The notes under the pieces are model-generated. The model searched no databases. It was not told the DNA's origin and worked only from the letters and a program-made list of their open reading frames with translations. A stretch of 64,000 nt of DNA from assembly GCF_027257875.1 (NCBI RefSeq), contig NZ_JAPVQY010000036.1, positions 1 to 64,000 on the forward strand. Reading direction: 5' to 3'. The position numbers and the translations under genes were made by a program. Each line of letters opens with the position of its first letter. Within the stretch, counting starts at the first letter, position 1. Below, in pieces: positions 1,371-8,944 of the stretch. This stretch comes from Burkholderia sp. IMCC1007 (GTDB taxonomy: Bacteria; Pseudomonadota; Gammaproteobacteria; Burkholderiales; Burkholderiaceae).

Positions 1371-1430
1371 GCGCAACGCGACGCAACTCGGCGCAACTCG
1401 GCGCAACTCAGCGCACATCAGCGCACATCG
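1371..1430. repeat. 10-bp tandem repeat, six units
   Basis: Six consecutive 10-bp units (1371-1380, 1381-1390 and so on to 1430), all variants of GCGCAACTCG or GCGCACATCA. The array runs into the 3' end of the AraC gene on the minus strand, and TCA units supply its stop at 1418 and a second redundant stop at 1408. The exact 10-bp register argues for local duplication. Confidence 0.85.
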
Positions 1431-2455
1431 CCGTCGCGCAGCAGACCGCTGCGATAGGTGCCCGGCGGCACGCCATACCAGCGCTTGAATGCCTGCGAAA
1501 AGCTCGACAGGTCGCTGAACCCCAGCCGCTCGGCCACGTCCGTCAGCGACAGATGCGCGTCGCCGAGCAGCGTCTCGGCCATCGCGCCGCGCGCCTGCGC
1601 GAGCAGCGTGCGAAACGTCGTGTGTTCGTCCTGCAGCCGGCGCTTCAGCGTGCGCGGGCTCGTGTTCATCAGCCGCGCCATGTCCTCGAGCGAGAACGGC
1701 ACGTTGCCGGGCGTCGCCGTCAGATATTGCCGCACCATCTCCGCCGTGCCCACGCGGGCGCGCCGCGCTTCGACGAGCTGGCTGCACATCTGCTCGCACA
1801 TCGACACCGTCAGCGGGTTCGCATGCGGCAGCGGCCGGTCGAGAAACGCGCGGTCGAACGCGAGGGTGTTCGCGCGCGCACCGAACGCCGGCTCGACGCC
1901 GGCAATGCGCGGCACGGATGCGGCGCCACTCGCCACGCCCGCGGCCTGCAGCGTGAAGCGCGACAACGCGAAATCGCCGCCGCCGATTTCCTGCAGCAGC
2001 ACGGCAGCGGCCGTCATGTCGCGCTCGACGAGGAATCGGCTCAGGTCGGCGTCGAGCTCCGGCGCACCGAAATTGAGCACACCGGCGCCCGGCTCCTCGC
2101 GATACGTGATCACGGTAAACGCATACGTGAGCGGCAGGAAGCGCATCGCGAGCGCCAGCGCGTCGCGCGCGGTCGCACTCGCGATCAGCCCGTAGCCCCA
2201 GACGCCGTACGCGGAGAAGTGATAGCGCTGCCCGACCTCGAAGCCGAGGCCCGGCGCACGCCCGAGCGCGCGCAGCAGGTTGCCGGTCAGCCGCAGTTCC
2301 TGCGCGGCCGTCACCTCGACGTTCGGATCGTCGAGTTGCGCGTCCGCGAGGCCCGTGCCGGCCAGCAGCTTCGTGCGCGACACGCCGCGTGCGTCGCCGA
2401 AATCGACCAGCAGCCGGGCGCTGGCCGGACTCCGGGTGAAGTCCCAGAAGCTCAT
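1418..2455 (-). CDS. AraC-family regulator with N-terminal arabinose-binding-type domain (VirS/OruR-like)
   Basis: A protein of about 345 residues if it starts at ATG 2455 (MSFWDFTRSP); an in-frame ATG at 2518 would add 21 poorly supported residues. Roughly the first 210 residues match the effector domain of the OruR/VirS class (arabinose_bd), with the characteristic FGLLG-like stretch replaced here by YGVWGYGLIAS. The last 100 residues carry two helix-turn-helix motifs: SLEDMARLMNTSPRTLKRRL, then LSLTDVAERLGFSDLSSFSQ followed by AFKRWYGVPPGTYR. It is divergent from the small ORF, GMC oxidoreductase and BVMO-esterase genes starting at 2598, so it probably controls them. VirS of Mycobacterium tuberculosis similarly faces a monooxygenase/esterase operon; that parallel is inference. 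Confidence 0.9.
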   Translation of the reverse strand: MSFWDFTRSPASARLLVDFGDARGVSRTKLLAGTGLADAQLDDPNVEVTAAQELRLTGNLLRALGRAPGLGFEVGQRYHFSAYGVWGYGLIASATARDALALAMRFLPLTYAFTVITYREEPGAGVLNFGAPELDADLSRFLVERDMTAAAVLLQEIGGGDFALSRFTLQAAGVASGAASVPRIAGVEPAFGARANTLAFDRAFLDRPLPHANPLTVSMCEQMCSQLVEARRARVGTAEMVRQYLTATPGNVPFSLEDMARLMNTSPRTLKRRLQDEHTTFRTLLAQARGAMAETLLGDAHLSLTDVAERLGFSDLSSFSQAFKRWYGVPPGTYRSGLLRDGDVR

Positions 2456-2597
2456 GCGGAGAAACCCTCGAAGCGCCGATTTGGCCCAAATACTAAAACA
2501 ATTGTCCCGAAGCAGCATTGGTGTTTTCCCATCCGGCCCGCACCATCGGCGTCATCGATCGTCGCCCGAACGACGCCAACGCCCAGGAGGAGACACC
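2456..2597. promoter_or_regulatory. Divergent regulatory region of the alcohol/BVMO cluster
   Basis: 142 bp between the AraC gene and the plus-strand operon. It contains the only AT-rich patch nearby, around 2479-2508, with the small palindrome ACAATTGT at 2498-2505 next to TACTAAAA. A strong Shine-Dalgarno AGGAGG sits at 2585-2590 in front of the ATG at 2598. The operator is not defined. Confidence 0.45.
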
Positions 2598-2836: not shown

Positions 2837-4564
2837 ATGAGCAAGACTTACGACTACATCGTCGTCGGCGGCGGTTCGGGCGGATGCGTCGTGGCAGGAC
2901 GACTGACCGAAGACCCGGCCGTCACCGTGTGCGTGCTCGAGGCCGGCGGCCGCGGCGACAGCGCGGTCGTCAACGTGCCGACCGGCGCCGTGGCGATGCT
3001 GTCGACCCGCTTGAACAACTGGGCGTTCGATACCGTGCCGCAGCCGGGGCTCGGCGGGCGCATCGGCTATCAGCCGCGCGGCAAGGCGCTCGGCGGCTCG
3101 TCCGCGATCAATGCGATGGTCTATATCCGCGGCCATCGCGTCGACTACGACGGCTGGGCGGCGCTCGGCAACGAGGGCTGGGCCTACGACGACGTGCTGC
3201 CGTACTTCCGCCTGAGCGAGCACAACGAGCGCTTCGACGATGCGTGGCACGGCCGCGACGGCCCACTGTGGGTCAGCGACCTGCGCACCGGCAACCCGTT
3301 CCACGCGCGCTATCTCGATGCGGCGCGCCAGGCCGGCCTGCCGCTCACCGACGACTTCAACGGCGCGCAGCAGGAAGGCGTCGGCATCTACCAGGTCACG
3401 CAGAAGCACGGCGAACGGTGGAGCGCGGCACGCGCGTACCTGCTGCCGCACATCGGCCGCCGCGACAACCTGACCGTCGAAACCCATGCGCAGGTGCTGC
3501 GCATCCTGTTCGACGGCACGCGCGCCACCGGTGTCGAGGTGCGGCAGCACGGCGAAGTCCGCACGCTGCATGCGCGACGCGAAGTCGTGCTCGCGGCCGG
3601 CGCGTTGCAGACGCCTCAGTTGCTGATGCTGTCCGGCATCGGCCCGGCCGCCGAACTGCAACGGCACGGCATTCCGATGCGCGCCGACCTGCGCGGCGTC
3701 GGCCGCAACCTGCAGGATCATCCGGACTTCATCCTCGGCTACCGCGCGCGCAGCGTCGACACGATGGGTGTATCCGCGCGCGGCGGCCTGCGCATGCTGC
3801 GCGAATTCATGCGCTTTCGCCGCGAACGGCGCGGGATGCTGACGTCGAATTTCGCGGAAGGCGGCGGCTTCCTCAAGACGCGCGCCGGCCTCGATGCGCC
3901 CGACATCCAGTTGCACTTCGTCGTCGCGCTCGTCGACGATCATGCGCGCCGCCTGCATGCCGGCCACGGGCTGTCGTGCCATGTGTGCCTGCTGCGGCCG
4001 CGCAGCCGCGGCTCGGTCACGCTGCACGGCGCCGACCCGCTTGCCGCGCCGCGCATCGATCCCGCGTTCTTCGACGATCCGCGCGACCTCGACGACATGG
4101 TTGCCGGCTTCAAGCTCACGCGCCGGCTGATGGAAGCGCCCGCGCTCGCCGAATGGACCACGCGCGACGTGTTCACCGCGAACGTGACGACCGACGACGC
4201 GATTCGCGACGTGCTGCGCCGGCGCACCGACACCGTGTATCACCCGGTCGGCACATGCCGGATGGGCCGCGATGCGCTCGCCGTCGTCGATCCTCAGTTG
4301 CGCGTGCATGGCATGGAGGGGCTGCGCATCGTCGATGCGTCGATCATGCCGACGCTGATCGGCGGCAACACCAATGCGCCGACGATCATGATCGCCGAGA
4401 AGGCCGTCGACCTGATGCGCGGCGTGCGGCGCACGGCGGCATGCGCACCCGCCGATACGCGCTGCGAGCCGGCCGATGCGCCGGCACACCGCGATACCGT
4501 TCCAGCGTCGTGCATGTCGCGCGATGCGATCCAGCACGAGGAAACCCGCCATGTCGTCGCCTGA
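2837..4564 (+). CDS. GMC-family FAD-dependent oxidoreductase (choline/alcohol dehydrogenase-like)
   Basis: A 575-residue flavoprotein of the glucose-methanol-choline family. The start is at ATG 2837, with GGAGAG at 2825-2830. The N-terminal ADP-binding motif is YDYIVVGGGSGGCVVAGRL (residues 5-23). GMC signature 1 region is GKALGGSSAINAMVYIRG, signature 2 region is GALQTPQLLMLSGIGP, and the C-terminal catalytic His area is YHPVGTCRMG followed by VVDPQLRVHGMEGLRIVDAS. The family oxidises primary or secondary alcohols to aldehydes or ketones using FAD. It overlaps the downstream BVMO-esterase by 14 bp, so the two are translationally coupled and the ketone product is a plausible substrate of that enzyme. 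The C-terminus has an unusual Ala/Arg-rich extension of about 40 residues. Confidence 0.93.
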   Translation: MSKTYDYIVVGGGSGGCVVAGRLTEDPAVTVCVLEAGGRGDSAVVNVPTGAVAMLSTRLNNWAFDTVPQPGLGGRIGYQPRGKALGGSSAINAMVYIRGHRVDYDGWAALGNEGWAYDDVLPYFRLSEHNERFDDAWHGRDGPLWVSDLRTGNPFHARYLDAARQAGLPLTDDFNGAQQEGVGIYQVTQKHGERWSAARAYLLPHIGRRDNLTVETHAQVLRILFDGTRATGVEVRQHGEVRTLHARREVVLAAGALQTPQLLMLSGIGPAAELQRHGIPMRADLRGVGRNLQDHPDFILGYRARSVDTMGVSARGGLRMLREFMRFRRERRGMLTSNFAEGGGFLKTRAGLDAPDIQLHFVVALVDDHARRLHAGHGLSCHVCLLRPRSRGSVTLHGADPLAAPRIDPAFFDDPRDLDDMVAGFKLTRRLMEAPALAEWTTRDVFTANVTTDDAIRDVLRRRTDTVYHPVGTCRMGRDALAVVDPQLRVHGMEGLRIVDASIMPTLIGGNTNAPTIMIAEKAVDLMRGVRRTAACAPADTRCEPADAPAHRDTVPASCMSRDAIQHEETRHVVA

Positions 4565-7097
4565 AGCGCTCCATTCCGCCGCATCGGCCGCGCCGCTGTC
4601 GGCCATCATCATCGGCGCCGGCTTCGCCGGCATCGGCATGGCGATCGCACTGCAACGCGCCGGCATTCACGACTTCGTGATCGCCGAACGCTCGCACGAC
4701 GTGGGCGGCGTGTGGCGCGACAACCGCTACCCGGGCGCCGCGTGCGACGTGCCCTCGCATCTGTACTCGTTCTCGTTCGAGCCGAATCCGGCGTGGTCGC
4801 GCGTGTTCGCGCCGCAGCCGGAAATCCATGCGTATCTGCAGCACTGTGCGCGCAAATATGGCCTCGAACGCTATCTGCGTTTCGGCGCGGAAGTCGCCGA
4901 TGCGCGATATGACGACGCCCGCGCACGGTGGGATGTGACGCTCGCCGACGGCACGACGCTCAGCGCGACCCTGCTCATCAGCGGCACCGGCCAGTTGAGC
5001 CGCCCCGCGATGCCCGACCTGCCCGGCATCGACACGTTTCGCGGCCGCGCATTCCACTCCGCACACTGGGATCACGACTATTCGCTTGCCGGCAAACGCG
5101 TGGCGGTGGTCGGCACCGGCGCGTCGGCGATCCAGTTCGTCCCTGCGATCGCCCGTGACGTCGCGCGCCTCGTCGTATTCCAGCGTTCGCCGGCCTACGT
5201 GATGCCGCGTCCCGACCGCGCGTATCGCGCGTGGGAGCACGCGCTGTTCCGCCGGCTGCCGTGGGCGATGAAGCTGTACCGCGCGTCGATCTATGTGCGC
5301 TACGAGTCGCGGGCGGTCGCGTTCACGCGGCTGCGCGGGCTGATGGATCTCGCGGTCGGCCGGCCGTTTCGCAAGCTGCTCGCGCGCGATGTGCGCGACC
5401 CCGCGCTGCGCGCACGGCTCACGCCCGACTATCCGATCGGCTGCAAACGGATCCTGCTGTCGAGCGACTATCTCGCCGCGATCGCTCGCGACAACGTCGA
5501 ACTCGTCACGCAACGCATCCGGCGCGTGACCGAGGACGGCATCGAGACCGACGACGGCGTCCATCATCCGGTCGACGCGATCGTCTACGGCACCGGCTTC
5601 GCCGCGACCGCGTTCCTGTCGCCGATGCGCATCACGGGCCGCGACGGGCTCGAGCTGAACGACGCATGGCGACGCGGCGCGCAGGCGTATCTCGGCCTCA
5701 CCGTGCCCGGCTTTCCGAATTTCTTCATGCTGTACGGGCCGAACACCAACCTCGGCCACAACTCGATCGTGTACATGCTCGAAAGCCAGATCGCACATGT
5801 GATGCGCTGCGTGCTCGCGATGCGGCGCGACGGCGCGCGCGCGATCGACGTCGATCCGCGCCGCTACCGGCACTTCAACGTGCACGTGCAACGGCGGCTC
5901 GCCGGCTCGATATGGAGCGGCTGCAACAGCTGGTACGTCGATGCGTCGGGGCACAACAGCACGAACTGGCCGGGCTTCACGCTGACCTATCGATGGCTCA
6001 CGCGCTTCGCCGGGCTGTCCCCGTACCGCTTCACGCGGCCGCTGCCCGGCGGCGTCGCGCCCGTGGCCGTGGCCGTGCCCGTGCCCGTGCCCGTGCCCGT
6101 GCCCACACACACGCACACGCTCAGGCACACGCTCACGCCCACGCCGACGCCCACGCACGGCGTCGTCGTCGCGCCGCCTGCCGGCCGCGCAGAAGCGCTC
6201 GCCGCCGCGTCGCTGCGCGGCTTTCTGCGCGTCGCGTTCCGGCCGCTGATCGGGCCGCCGTTCGGCGCGCGCATGCAGCGCGGTGTCGTCGCGTTGCTGG
6301 CGCCGCTGATGCCCGGCGCGGGCGGTACGCTGCGCTACCGGATGTTGGCCCATGGCGTGCCGGTCGAAGTGATCGCGCCGAAGCACGGCGATGCGGGCGG
6401 CGCGATGCTGTATCTGCACGGCGGTGCGTTCTGTGTCGGCGGCCCGCATACGCATCGCGGCGTGACGACGCGGCTCGCCGCCGAAGCCGGCCTGCCGGTG
6501 TGGGTGCCCGACTACCGGCTCGCGCCCGAGCATCCGAGCCCCGCGGCGCTCGACGATGCGCTCGCCGCCTACGACGCGTTGCGCGCGCAGGGCTACGCGC
6601 CGCACCGGATCGTGATTGCCGGCGATTCGGCCGGCGGCGCGCTCGCGCTGGCGCTCGCCGTCGCGCTACGCGATCGTGGCGAGCCGGCGGCCGCCGCGCT
6701 GCTGCTGATCTCGCCCGTGACCGATCCCGCACTGGGCGGCGACACGCTCACGTCGCGCCGCCACGACGATCCGATGATCCGGCGCGGCTGGCTCGAACAG
6801 GGTTTGCGCTGGTATCACGGGGCGGGCTCGGCTGCGGCGCGCGGCCCGCTCGACACCGATCTGCGCGGCATGCCGCCGATGCTGGTGCAGGCCGGCGATC
6901 AGGAGGTGCTGCTGTCGGATGCGCAGCGGCTCGCCGAGCATGCGCGCGCGTGCGGCGTGCCGTGCCGGCTCGAAGTGCATGCCGCGCGCTGGCACGTGTT
7001 TCATCTGCAGGCGTTCTACCTGCGCTCGGCGCGCGATGCGCTGCGCACGCTGGCCGCATTTGCGGCGGAACGGGTGGCCACGGTGGCGGCGCCATGA
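4551..7097 (+). CDS. Fused Baeyer-Villiger monooxygenase and alpha/beta-hydrolase (HSL-type esterase)
   Basis: An 848-residue bifunctional protein; ATG 4551 is preceded by GAGGAAA. Residues 1-500 are a flavin monooxygenase: FAD-binding IIIGAGFAGIGMAIAL near residues 18-33, the Baeyer-Villiger fingerprint FRGRAFHSAHWD from F163 to W173-D174, the NADPH-binding VVGTGASAIQF, and YGTGFAATAF. Residues 503-537 are a low-complexity linker (VA/VP pairs, then Thr-His and Thr-Pro pairs). Residues 545-848 are a hormone-sensitive-lipase-type esterase with oxyanion motif HGG at 623-625, nucleophile S693 in GDSAGG, and a terminal His at about 818. A ketone oxidised to an ester by the first half could be hydrolysed by the second. 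In other bacteria these activities are normally separate adjacent genes. It follows a GMC alcohol oxidoreductase in the same operon. Confidence 0.93.
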   Translation: MSSPEALHSAASAAPLSAIIIGAGFAGIGMAIALQRAGIHDFVIAERSHDVGGVWRDNRYPGAACDVPSHLYSFSFEPNPAWSRVFAPQPEIHAYLQHCARKYGLERYLRFGAEVADARYDDARARWDVTLADGTTLSATLLISGTGQLSRPAMPDLPGIDTFRGRAFHSAHWDHDYSLAGKRVAVVGTGASAIQFVPAIARDVARLVVFQRSPAYVMPRPDRAYRAWEHALFRRLPWAMKLYRASIYVRYESRAVAFTRLRGLMDLAVGRPFRKLLARDVRDPALRARLTPDYPIGCKRILLSSDYLAAIARDNVELVTQRIRRVTEDGIETDDGVHHPVDAIVYGTGFAATAFLSPMRITGRDGLELNDAWRRGAQAYLGLTVPGFPNFFMLYGPNTNLGHNSIVYMLESQIAHVMRCVLAMRRDGARAIDVDPRRYRHFNVHVQRRLAGSIWSGCNSWYVDASGHNSTNWPGFTLTYRWLTRFAGLSPYRFTRPLPGGVAPVAVAVPVPVPVPVPTHTHTLRHTLTPTPTPTHGVVVAPPAGRAEALAAASLRGFLRVAFRPLIGPPFGARMQRGVVALLAPLMPGAGGTLRYRMLAHGVPVEVIAPKHGDAGGAMLYLHGGAFCVGGPHTHRGVTTRLAAEAGLPVWVPDYRLAPEHPSPAALDDALAAYDALRAQGYAPHRIVIAGDSAGGALALALAVALRDRGEPAAAALLLISPVTDPALGGDTLTSRRHDDPMIRRGWLEQGLRWYHGAGSAAARGPLDTDLRGMPPMLVQAGDQEVLLSDAQRLAEHARACGVPCRLEVHAARWHVFHLQAFYLRSARDALRTLAAFAAERVATVAAP
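6060..6160 (+). repeat. In-frame hexanucleotide repeat encoding the BVMO-esterase linker
   Basis: Two GTGGCC and five GTGCCC hexamers (Val-Ala, Val-Pro), then alternating CAC/ACG runs giving Thr-His, then ACG/CCC runs giving Thr-Pro. All are in frame inside the 4551-7097 gene. Changes by whole hexamers would alter linker length without a frameshift. Confidence 0.9.
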
Positions 7098-7288: not shown

Positions 7289-7843
7289 ATGAAAAGAACC
7301 CATACCCTCAACACGCTTGCTCTGCTTTGCTGCGTGGGCCTCCAGTGCGCGACGTCGGCGTTCGCGGACGAACCGAAGAAGGTCGCGTTCGTCGACACGG
7401 GCAATACCGGACGCAGCGTGATGGCCGAAGCGATCGCAGGACAACTGATCGAGCAACGCCACGCACATATCGCGGTGATCTCGCGCGCGGTGGACGAGGA
7501 TCCGTACGACGTGAAGCCCGAGGCCAACGGCGTGATCCTGATGAAGCGGCGCGGGCTCGACACGTCCGCGCATCGTTCGGTGCAACTGAACGCGAACGAC
7601 GTCAAGCATTCCGACGTGATCCTGACGATGACCGACAAGCACAAGGAAAAAGTGCTCGCGCTCTATCCGTCGGCGGCCGGCAAGGTGTTTACGCTCGCCG
7701 AATATGCGACCGGCGAGCACAAGGACGTGCCCGACGCGTGGGGCAAGCCGATCGACTTCTACGAATCGGTGACCGCGCAGCTCGACGCGTTCATCCCGGC
7801 CGCGCTCGACAAGGTCGCGACGGCCGCGCCCGCGAAGCCGTAA
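7289..7843 (+). CDS. Secreted low-molecular-weight tyrosine-phosphatase-like protein lacking the catalytic Cys
   Basis: 184 residues with an apparent Sec signal peptide: MKRTHTL, a hydrophobic core to about residue 22, and a likely cut after SAFA at residue 26. The mature part resembles the LMW-PTP/arsenate-reductase fold, but the P-loop reads FVDTGNTGRSVMAE instead of the canonical VCxGNxCRSPMAE. D36 therefore replaces the nucleophilic Cys and G41 the second Cys. The downstream VPDAWGKP is near the usual DPW/DPY general-acid loop. The preserved G-N-T-x-R-S loop suggests it may still bind an oxyanion without acting as a phosphatase. It stands alone, 191 bp after the BVMO-esterase. A periplasmic binding role is speculation. 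Confidence 0.82.
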   Translation: MKRTHTLNTLALLCCVGLQCATSAFADEPKKVAFVDTGNTGRSVMAEAIAGQLIEQRHAHIAVISRAVDEDPYDVKPEANGVILMKRRGLDTSAHRSVQLNANDVKHSDVILTMTDKHKEKVLALYPSAAGKVFTLAEYATGEHKDVPDAWGKPIDFYESVTAQLDAFIPAALDKVATAAPAKP

Positions 7844-7887
7844 CGCGGTTGCACTTGCGGGGTCGCCCGTCGCAATGTCCGGCGGCC

Positions 7888-7974
7888 GGCTCCGGCTTCG
7901 GCTTCGGATCCGGCTTCGGCTTCGGCTCCGGCTTCGGCTTCGGCTTCGGCTTCGGCTTCGGCTTCGGCTTCGGC
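7888..7974. repeat. GGCTTC hexanucleotide tandem repeat
   Basis: About 14 units of GGCTTC with a few GGCTCC and GGATCC variants, uninterrupted from about 7888 to 7974, in an intergenic stretch. The last eight or so units are identical, suggesting recent slippage. Confidence 0.92.
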
Positions 7975-8285: not shown

Positions 8286-8618
8286 ATGCTCTCCAAGTTC
8301 GAACTGCTTCGCTATCAGCGCGACGACGGTCGCGAGCCGTTCACCCAATGGCTGAACACCGTGCGCGACAAGCTCGCGCAAGCGCGGATCCGCGAACGCC
8401 TGCGCCGCGTGGAAACCGGAAATTTCGGCGATTGCGAAGCGGTCGGCGAAGGCGTGATCGAACTGCGCGTCCATGTCGGCGCGGGATATCGGGTGTATTT
8501 CGGCCGACACGGCAGTGCACTGGTGCTGCTGCTGTCCGGTGGCGACAAGCACAGCCAACCCGACGACATCCGGCGCGCAAAGGAACACTGGTTGAACTGG
8601 AAGCGGAGGCAAACATGA
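8286..8618 (+). CDS. Type II toxin, RelE/ParE superfamily (HigB-like addiction module killer protein)
   Basis: 110 residues, the usual size for the HI1419/HigB-like subgroup of RelE/ParE toxins. Visible family features are the N-terminal PFTQWLNTVRDKLAQARIRERLRRVETGNFGD, then GVIELRVHVGAGYRVYF (the core beta strands with conserved Arg and Tyr) and LLLSGGDKHSQPDDIRRAKEHW near the C-terminus. Members are usually ribosome-dependent mRNA interferases. The toxin is first in the operon, which is typical of the HigBA arrangement, and its TGA overlaps the antitoxin ATG (ATGA at 8615-8618). The start lacks a recognisable ribosome-binding site. Confidence 0.9.
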   Translation: MLSKFELLRYQRDDGREPFTQWLNTVRDKLAQARIRERLRRVETGNFGDCEAVGEGVIELRVHVGAGYRVYFGRHGSALVLLLSGGDKHSQPDDIRRAKEHWLNWKRRQT

Positions 8619-8944
8619 AGAAGCTGAAAGGCGCGGTATCGCACCACGACGCCGAAGTCGCCGAACTCGGCGCCGATCGCGAGCTCGCGGTCGCCTATCT
8701 GCGCGTCGCGATGGAATCGCTCGACGATCCCGACAATCGCGCGGCCGGGCTGCTCGCGCTGCGCACGGTCGCCGAAGCGTACGGCGGCCTCGGCGCGGTT
8801 GCCGCGGAAGCCGGCATCAGCCGCGAATCGCTGTATCGCACGCTGTCGCCCAACGGCAACCCGACACTGAAAACCCTGCTCGCGGTGCTCAAGACCGTCG
8901 GCCTGCGCCTGTCCGTCGTCCCCGCGCAGCCGGCGCACGCATAG
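8615..8944 (+). CDS. Antitoxin, HigA-like / HI1420-type DNA-binding protein
   Basis: 109 residues, overlapping the toxin stop by 4 bp, with GGAGG at 8605-8609 as ribosome-binding site. The C-terminal half contains a helix-turn-helix of the addiction-module antidote family: GGLGAVAAEAGISRESLYRTL followed by SPNGNPTLKTLLAVLKTVGLRLSVVP. The N-terminal part should neutralise the toxin. It probably binds the palindrome at 8269-8284 to repress both genes, as in other modules of this family; that is inference. Confidence 0.9.
   Translation: MKKLKGAVSHHDAEVAELGADRELAVAYLRVAMESLDDPDNRAAGLLALRTVAEAYGGLGAVAAEAGISRESLYRTLSPNGNPTLKTLLAVLKTVGLRLSVVPAQPAHA

Follow-up and report, generated by a model that had tools for sequence, protein, structure and literature searches.

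Organization of the locus

The window analysed here, a stretch of 64,000 nucleotides from Burkholderia sp. IMCC1007, carries a short operon made of an aldehyde dehydrogenase (ALDH) remnant, a GMC oxidoreductase gene and one long gene in which a predicted Baeyer-Villiger monooxygenase (BVMO) is joined to a predicted esterase, with an AraC-type regulator gene divergently oriented next to it (Table 1). Such a compact operon with a divergent AraC-type gene had been proposed in the initial annotation, and both the coordinates and the PF12625 match of the regulator (E 8.3e-33) agree with it.

Table 1. Features of the BVMO-esterase locus, in window coordinates
Feature	Position	Strand	Basis or remark
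AraC-type regulator gene, divergent	1418..2455	-	PF12625 and HTH_18
Predicted operator, conserved 29-nt site TTTGGCCCAAATACTAAAACAATTGTCCC	2480..2508	.	two TTGKCCC half-sites, 21 nt apart
Aldehyde dehydrogenase remnant, 70 codons	2598..2810	+	both ends match, middle gone
GMC oxidoreductase gene	2837..4564	+	stop overlaps fused gene by 14 nt
Fused BVMO-esterase gene	4551..7097	+	848 aa; ORF reading, Pfam, 233 fused rows
BVMO half, residues 1-500	4551..6050	+	D66, F163, H169, W173, R300
Hexanucleotide-repeat linker	6059..6158	+	repeat units GCCCGT, CACGCA
Esterase half, residues 541-848	6171..7094	+	HGG 623-625, S693, E785, H815

The long gene is a single stop-free frame, and Pfam matches its 848-aa translation to an FMO-like domain at residues 20-236 (E 6.7e-18) and to Abhydrolase_3 at residues 619-818 (E 2.5e-51). 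The start at 4551 is supported by GAGGAA ahead of it at 4538-4543 and by the overlap with the GMC stop codon (4562-4564); another in-frame ATG is present at 4476. An AlphaFold model of the fused protein had a mean pLDDT of 79.8 and a pTM of 0.82, with the active-site stretches 61-74, 350-356 and 397-404 all below a pLDDT of 50. The frame, the Pfam matches and the conserved active sites described below bear out the initial proposal of one polypeptide, and confirm, at the level of predicted function, that this gene combines a type I BVMO half with a bacterial hormone-sensitive-lipase (HSL)-type esterase half.

Both halves keep their active-site residues

Conservation was scored over 233 uninterrupted fused rows, made up of 89 locus frames and 144 database proteins, in which the window is counted twice and 212 rows are distinct by their last 600 residues. 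Type I BVMOs are recognized by the fingerprint FxGxxxHxxxW[PD], which the window protein displays as F163 followed by RGRAFHSAHWD (FRGRAFHSAHWD starts at F163), as had been noticed initially; the strict pattern was found in 222 of these rows and 11 rows deviate from it. A first Rossmann motif, GAGFAG, lies at G22 and a second one, GTGAS, starts from G188, while GGVWRDNRYPGAACD ends at D66 and a KR pair at 299-300 aligns with the KR of steroid monooxygenase. H169, W173, K299 and R300, as well as G188 and G190, are found in all 233 rows, F163 in 229 and G165 in 230, and G22/G24/G27 and D66 in 231, the other two having gaps. PDB titles among the Foldseek matches name Asp66 and Arg337 mutants of PAMO, and we take D66 and R300 of the window protein, by motif, to be their putative equivalents. 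When the BVMO half alone was used as a Foldseek query, the best match was 7v8o_A (E 2.2e-38), and 50 of 50 among the matches listed were CHMO, PAMO, OTEMO, steroid monooxygenase or other BVMOs; identity to solved BVMOs is about 25-33%, and the closest ones include CHMO and steroid monooxygenase. By its fingerprint, its two Rossmann motifs with the catalytic Asp and Arg, and its fold, this half is classified as a predicted type I BVMO.

The esterase half had been described as an intact HSL-type esterase with H818 as its histidine, and most of that description stood: the HGG at 623-625 and the nucleophile S693 within GDSAGG are invariant (233/233 rows), as are E785, D790 and H815. H818, however, is replaced by Gln in 62 of the 233 rows, and EstD11 has a Gln opposite H818 and a His opposite H815 in the alignment, indicating that the catalytic histidine is H815, not H818. 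The triad acid appears best placed at E785, to which, together with H815, the alignment with EstD11 and Est8 points; E785 would be the catalytic acid. A fold search with the esterase half alone also matched the EstD11 fold. HGG, a GDSAG nucleophile, a Ser-acid-His triad and this fold classify the half as a putative bacterial HSL (family IV) esterase, with the difference that EstD11 and related bacterial HSL esterases are stand-alone proteins while this one is part of a fusion.

Compared with 13 loci, the BVMO half had a dN/dS of 0.16-0.21 and the esterase half one of 0.15-0.27, so that purifying selection is similar on both. Pairwise distances of the two halves correlated with r = 0.77 over 84 rows (the maximum of 999 permutations was 0.23), as joint inheritance predicts, shared species history alone giving part of this correlation. 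By these measures, the fused protein is conserved and has retained both of its active sites.

The fusion is genuine, common in the genus and patchy beyond

We analysed 79 loci from a scan with one genome per species (the best 80 of the 539 encoding a relative). They comprise 60 complete fusions, 17 standalone BVMOs, one locus cut by a contig end (L025) and one frameshifted in its esterase part (L076). Of 65 genomes of the same genus, 39 have a BVMO match that reaches 74% identity or more; its open frame spans at least 839 codons in 38 of them and 694 codons in the last one (G057). In the genome G049, one TGA was reported in the esterase stretch. For the remaining 26 genomes, none of the BVMOs among the matches listed exceeds about 52% identity. 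A search of 369 genomes of the class, that of the window included, at E <= 1e-150 gave one other candidate, G090, which looks like a fusion from its 838-codon frame and its 59% identity. Judging by these matches, the fusion is frequent within the genus and of patchy occurrence outside it, and it was found in Burkholderia, Paraburkholderia, Cupriavidus, Ralstonia, Pseudomonas, Massilia, Solimonas and others. It also occurs on plasmids: among the 192 plasmid records that gave a match, 54 contain a single place where 80% or more of the protein is covered. Records H4-H25 (22 of 25 among the matches listed) are Burkholderia glumae plasmids of 100-200 kb that bear the fusion. Since automatic annotation names both halves in some members ('CzcO/acetyl esterase/lipase'), the architecture is already on record in databases.

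The search for the same two-domain architecture, suggested in the initial annotation together with the worry that a sequencing error had joined the halves, bears directly on whether a frameshift or a misassembly could have produced the fusion artificially. The linker is repetitive and one relative, L076, does carry a frameshift in its esterase part, which would speak for an artefact; yet the many separate records in which the fusion is uninterrupted, with linkers of 13-27 aa, refute it, and a 6-nt repeat unit preserves the frame when its copy number varies. We give an artefact practically no chance, and the relatives dispose of the sequencing-error worry as well. Measured between fixed points, the linker is 49 aa long in the window, the longest of the 233; all other fused rows have 13-27 aa, and 19 aa is the commonest length (136/233). 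The window linker is, judging from its sequence, an in-frame expansion, length changes keeping the frame because the repeat unit is 6 nt.

Two kinds of frames were rejected as further fusions. Open frames of about 823 aa with 44-46% identity, considered as a second fused paralogue in the genus, turned out to be two adjacent genes in both cases inspected (L117, L119), and at L006/L122 an overlapping frame of 858 aa enters a separate BVMO of about 31% identity. The cluster at L117 (593-9534) and L119 (2575-11606) consists of a BVMO of 487 aa and a hydrolase of 329 aa, 6 nt apart, plus a second BVMO-like gene; that of L117 additionally contains an iron-type alcohol dehydrogenase, an aldehyde dehydrogenase and a long-chain acyl-CoA ligase. 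By its gene content, this cluster is the putative split-gene counterpart of the fusion.

A divergent regulator with a single conserved site

For the regulator, we prefer the MSFWDF start (2455) over 2518 because homologues outside close kin align from MSFWDF. The initial annotation had called it VirS-like, which holds in so far as it is of the PF12625 kind and matches VirS (8rcx, E 3.9e-12), although it is closer to another AraC family regulator, 5chh (E 3.1e-18). An AraC homologue was found in 59 of the 79 loci, and in the other 20 none lies within the flanking DNA covered. Of the AraC-bearing loci, 29 combine a fusion with an upstream GMC gene, 14 have a fusion but lack GMC, 13 have a standalone BVMO and likewise lack GMC, and 3 have the AraC gene downstream beside a GMC gene; in 12 loci the fusion has neither GMC nor AraC in the flanking DNA covered.

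Upstream of the AraC gene lies the conserved 29-nt site, whose half-sites form a direct repeat. It was found in 59 of 60 sequences, taken from the window and 59 loci, and in most of them 14-31 nt separate it from the AraC start; the only absence is the frameshifted locus L076. Sites scored 17.5-54.0 bits (the lowest being L055 with 17.5 and L052 with 21.8) versus at most 14.1 in 522 control stretches, scores which are inflated as the matrix was trained on the sites themselves, the controls being scored by the same matrix. Depending on the locus, the site precedes an ALDH gene, a GMC gene, a fusion or a standalone BVMO. Of the 65 genomes of the genus, 36 contain the pattern, each a single time, and 29 lack it. 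Every one of the 36 belongs to the 39 fusion carriers, three of which (G015, G021 and G057) are without the pattern, and it is absent from all 26 non-carriers. Its distance from the fusion is at most about 3.5 kb in 35 of these 36 genomes; in G047 it sits on another contig. Within the own genome, no further copy was found within 3 mismatches, nor by the half-site pattern with 1 mismatch; the strict pattern found only the own site in the 369 class genomes, a result that is uninformative on distant taxa. Half-sites phased by 21 nt suit an AraC-type protein. Because the site is single in the own genome and confined to fusion carriers in the genus, the regulator, which is predicted to bind there, looks dedicated to the fusion locus alone. 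A single conserved upstream site would also offer a practical route to the inducer, and thereby to the substrate.

Neighbouring genes and the order of steps

At the place of the ALDH remnant, relatives have a whole gene, with a Pfam Aldedh match in L068. The remnant still has a good ribosome-binding site in front (AGGAGGAG), and in the Burkholderia loci L018, L019 and, weakly, L009 only the beginning of the ALDH gene is kept. The operon-type ALDH was found in 10 of the 79 loci (L016, L020, L024, L037, L046, L050, L052, L055, L067, L068), with 49-100% identity to that of L068 and always together with a GMC gene; matches at 30-34% in L030, L048 and L071 were dropped as unrelated. The GMC gene itself lies upstream of the fused gene in 32 of the 79 loci, and many loci have none. 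A short-chain dehydrogenase (SDR) accompanies the fusion in 8 loci, six of these SDRs being only 35-40% identical to that of L052, and SDR and GMC occur in the same locus in L039, L052, L055 and L076.

These distributions bear on the order of reactions that was proposed initially, in which the GMC enzyme oxidizes a secondary alcohol to the ketone that the fused protein converts to an ester and then to cleaved products. The position of the GMC gene, directly upstream of the fused gene and overlapping it, stood, recurs as an upstream position in the 32 loci and, with no other alcohol oxidoreductase found in the window's operon, would fit such an order. The role given to GMC is nevertheless doubtful: the operon ALDH is confined to GMC loci (10/10), as if the GMC product were an aldehyde, four loci have a separate SDR besides the GMC gene, and many loci do without any GMC. 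A published 2-ketone route, moreover, places alcohol and aldehyde oxidation after the esterase (PMC12753306). We regard the GMC-first order as possible and on balance rather unlikely. Because the operon ALDH always accompanies GMC (10/10 loci), GMC may instead oxidize the released alcohol; we read the ketone as coming from an SDR or an outside enzyme, with GMC and ALDH acting on a released primary alcohol or hydroxy acid.

A second hydrolase where the esterase half is missing

Directly downstream of the BVMO, 11 of the 17 standalone-BVMO loci have a gene for an unrelated alpha/beta-hydrolase, starting -4 to 50 nt past the BVMO stop. The one in L066 (7464-8378), an Aquabacterium locus, has Hydrolase_4 among its Pfam hits and a GTSFGG motif, and the sole NCBIfam match of this displacing hydrolase is the UilS lactonase model (95.7, versus a cut-off of 400). 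The same gene lies 41-82 nt after an intact fusion in five loci (L038, L040, L042, L045, L062); a 33% match in L022 is further away and was not counted. Five standalone loci (L072, L082, L084, L085, L086) have no such hydrolase, and hydrolysis within the operon would therefore not always be needed; L069, whose contig ends 93 nt after the BVMO, counts neither way. The absence of the esterase half beside an unrelated hydrolase, in Aquabacterium-type relatives, may be taken as natural evidence that hydrolysis should follow the BVMO step.

A tree built from 26 rows contains a clade of 13 (support 96/95), made up of five fused rows with the hydrolase, seven standalone rows with it and L072, which has neither. 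Within this clade, a fused row has a standalone row as its sister in more than one place (L045 with L066, 95/92; L072 inside the 100/100 group of L040 and L042), so that repeated loss of the esterase half, where the second hydrolase was already present, is probable; the tree by itself cannot separate loss from gain. Larger trees require 12 fused/standalone changes for the BVMO (122 rows; 9 forced by starred branches) and 16 for the esterase (121 rows; 3 forced), counts that cannot tell gain from loss. Many forks are weak, the outgroups were not clean, and some of the 'standalone' BVMO rows are partial records (P0139 and P0141 have 'partial' in their names, P0149 comes from a contig of 2.4 kb). 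Our preferred reading would be one origin of the fusion followed by repeated loss, since it is less likely that one and the same domain was acquired several times at one position. We also considered that the lost esterase had been relocated: five of six genomes with a standalone BVMO have an HSL protein at 38-44% identity, and the sixth has none at E <= 1e-20. The genome of L045 keeps its fusion yet has a 40% paralogue, and the HSL proteins therefore look like paralogues and not like relocated copies.

Proposed function and comparison with known systems

From the gene structure, the residues, the selection, the operon and the site, we infer both activities, their order and the binding of the regulator. 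The whole reading, which we consider probable, is that of a bifunctional catabolic enzyme under a dedicated AraC-type regulator. The N-terminal FAD/NADPH BVMO would insert an oxygen beside the carbonyl of a ketone to form an ester, or a lactone from a cyclic ketone, and the C-terminal serine esterase would hydrolyse it to an acid and a primary alcohol (or to a hydroxy acid). The released alcohol would then probably be oxidized by GMC, joined in ten relatives by an aldehyde dehydrogenase, and the divergent AraC-type protein would bind the 21-nt-phased repeat and serve the fusion locus alone.

Consecutive steps are not obligatory for fused proteins, so the two halves could also not act in series, the BVMO oxidizing something else (e.g. 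nitrogen or sulfur) beside an unrelated or idle esterase. We judge this improbable, for the triad is invariant, selection is alike on both halves, an unrelated hydrolase replaces the esterase half in 11 loci, and a BVMO and an esterase work consecutively in acmA/acmB (PMC6215540). Within the serial reading, the substrate might more specifically be a cyclic ketone (e.g. a terpenoid): the BVMO would give a lactone, the esterase would be a lactonase, and GMC and ALDH would turn the hydroxy acid into a dicarboxylic acid. As a variant that differs in substrate class, it overlaps in probability with the whole reading. CHMO and steroid monooxygenase among the closest solved BVMOs, the 'putative Monoterpene epsilon-lactone hydrolase' name that its source gives to a close esterase relative (P0181) and the lactonase-model match of the displacing hydrolase, far below cut-off as it is, point that way. 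Source names are automatic, however, and an identity of about 25-33% to solved BVMOs is too low for naming a substrate, which leaves the cyclic ketone a tentative and rather doubtful choice. Bolder still, in line with the channelling proposed initially, and somewhat less probable, is a self-contained ketone-cleaving enzyme that passes the ester or lactone between its sites without release, under a single-site regulator, with a history in which fusion was followed by arrival of the second hydrolase and repeated esterase loss.

According to the initial annotation, described systems such as mymA-lipR keep the two activities in separate adjacent genes. The published acm and sad cases agree with separate genes. 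In Gordonia sp. TY-5, acetone monooxygenase (acmA) forms methyl acetate, which the esterase of the next gene (acmB) hydrolyses (PMC6215540); the BVMO product is likewise an ester cut by an esterase, there with two separate genes and no fusion. The Acinetobacter sad cluster takes a 2-ketone through an ester to a primary alcohol and acetate by the BVMO SadD and the esterases SadA/SadB, followed by alcohol and then aldehyde oxidation (PMC12753306), an order like the one proposed here, with the difference that the sad proteins are separate. A BVMO operon switched by a divergent AraC-type regulator is described for virS-mymA of Mycobacterium tuberculosis (PMC13234193); it shares the PF12625 kind of regulator with our locus and differs in having seven separate genes, against an ALDH remnant, a GMC gene and a fused gene here. 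Whereas the acm-, sad- and mymA-type pairs are separate BVMO and esterase proteins, the window has one 848-aa frame. Artificial ADH-CHMO fusions join a BVMO to a neighbouring pathway step (PMC5624969); these are man-made and couple the step before the BVMO, whereas the natural fusion would couple the step after it.

Among the matches listed in the literature searched, we found no characterized natural BVMO-esterase fusion, in line with the initial statement that none of this type was known. By analogy, the mode of working would be a known one (acmA/acmB, sadD with sadA/sadB), its one-polypeptide form being absent from those matches. New here are the conserved 29-nt site, the putative esterase loss beside an unrelated hydrolase and the occurrence of the operon ALDH in GMC loci alone. 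The protein is a natural one-protein candidate for converting a ketone to an acid, where artificial BVMO fusions were built to couple reactions, and the fused, fused-plus-extra-hydrolase and split lineages would allow a direct test of the benefit of fusion.

Other genes near the locus

Beyond the fused gene, the window has a low-molecular-weight phosphotyrosine phosphatase-like gene (7289-7843, PF01451), just past which lie 14.7 copies of CGGCTT (7887-7974). Two overlapping small genes at 8286-8944 are toxin-antitoxin-like, with a Gp49-like match below cut-off (20.2 versus 23.9) and a probable addiction module antidote (PF21716).
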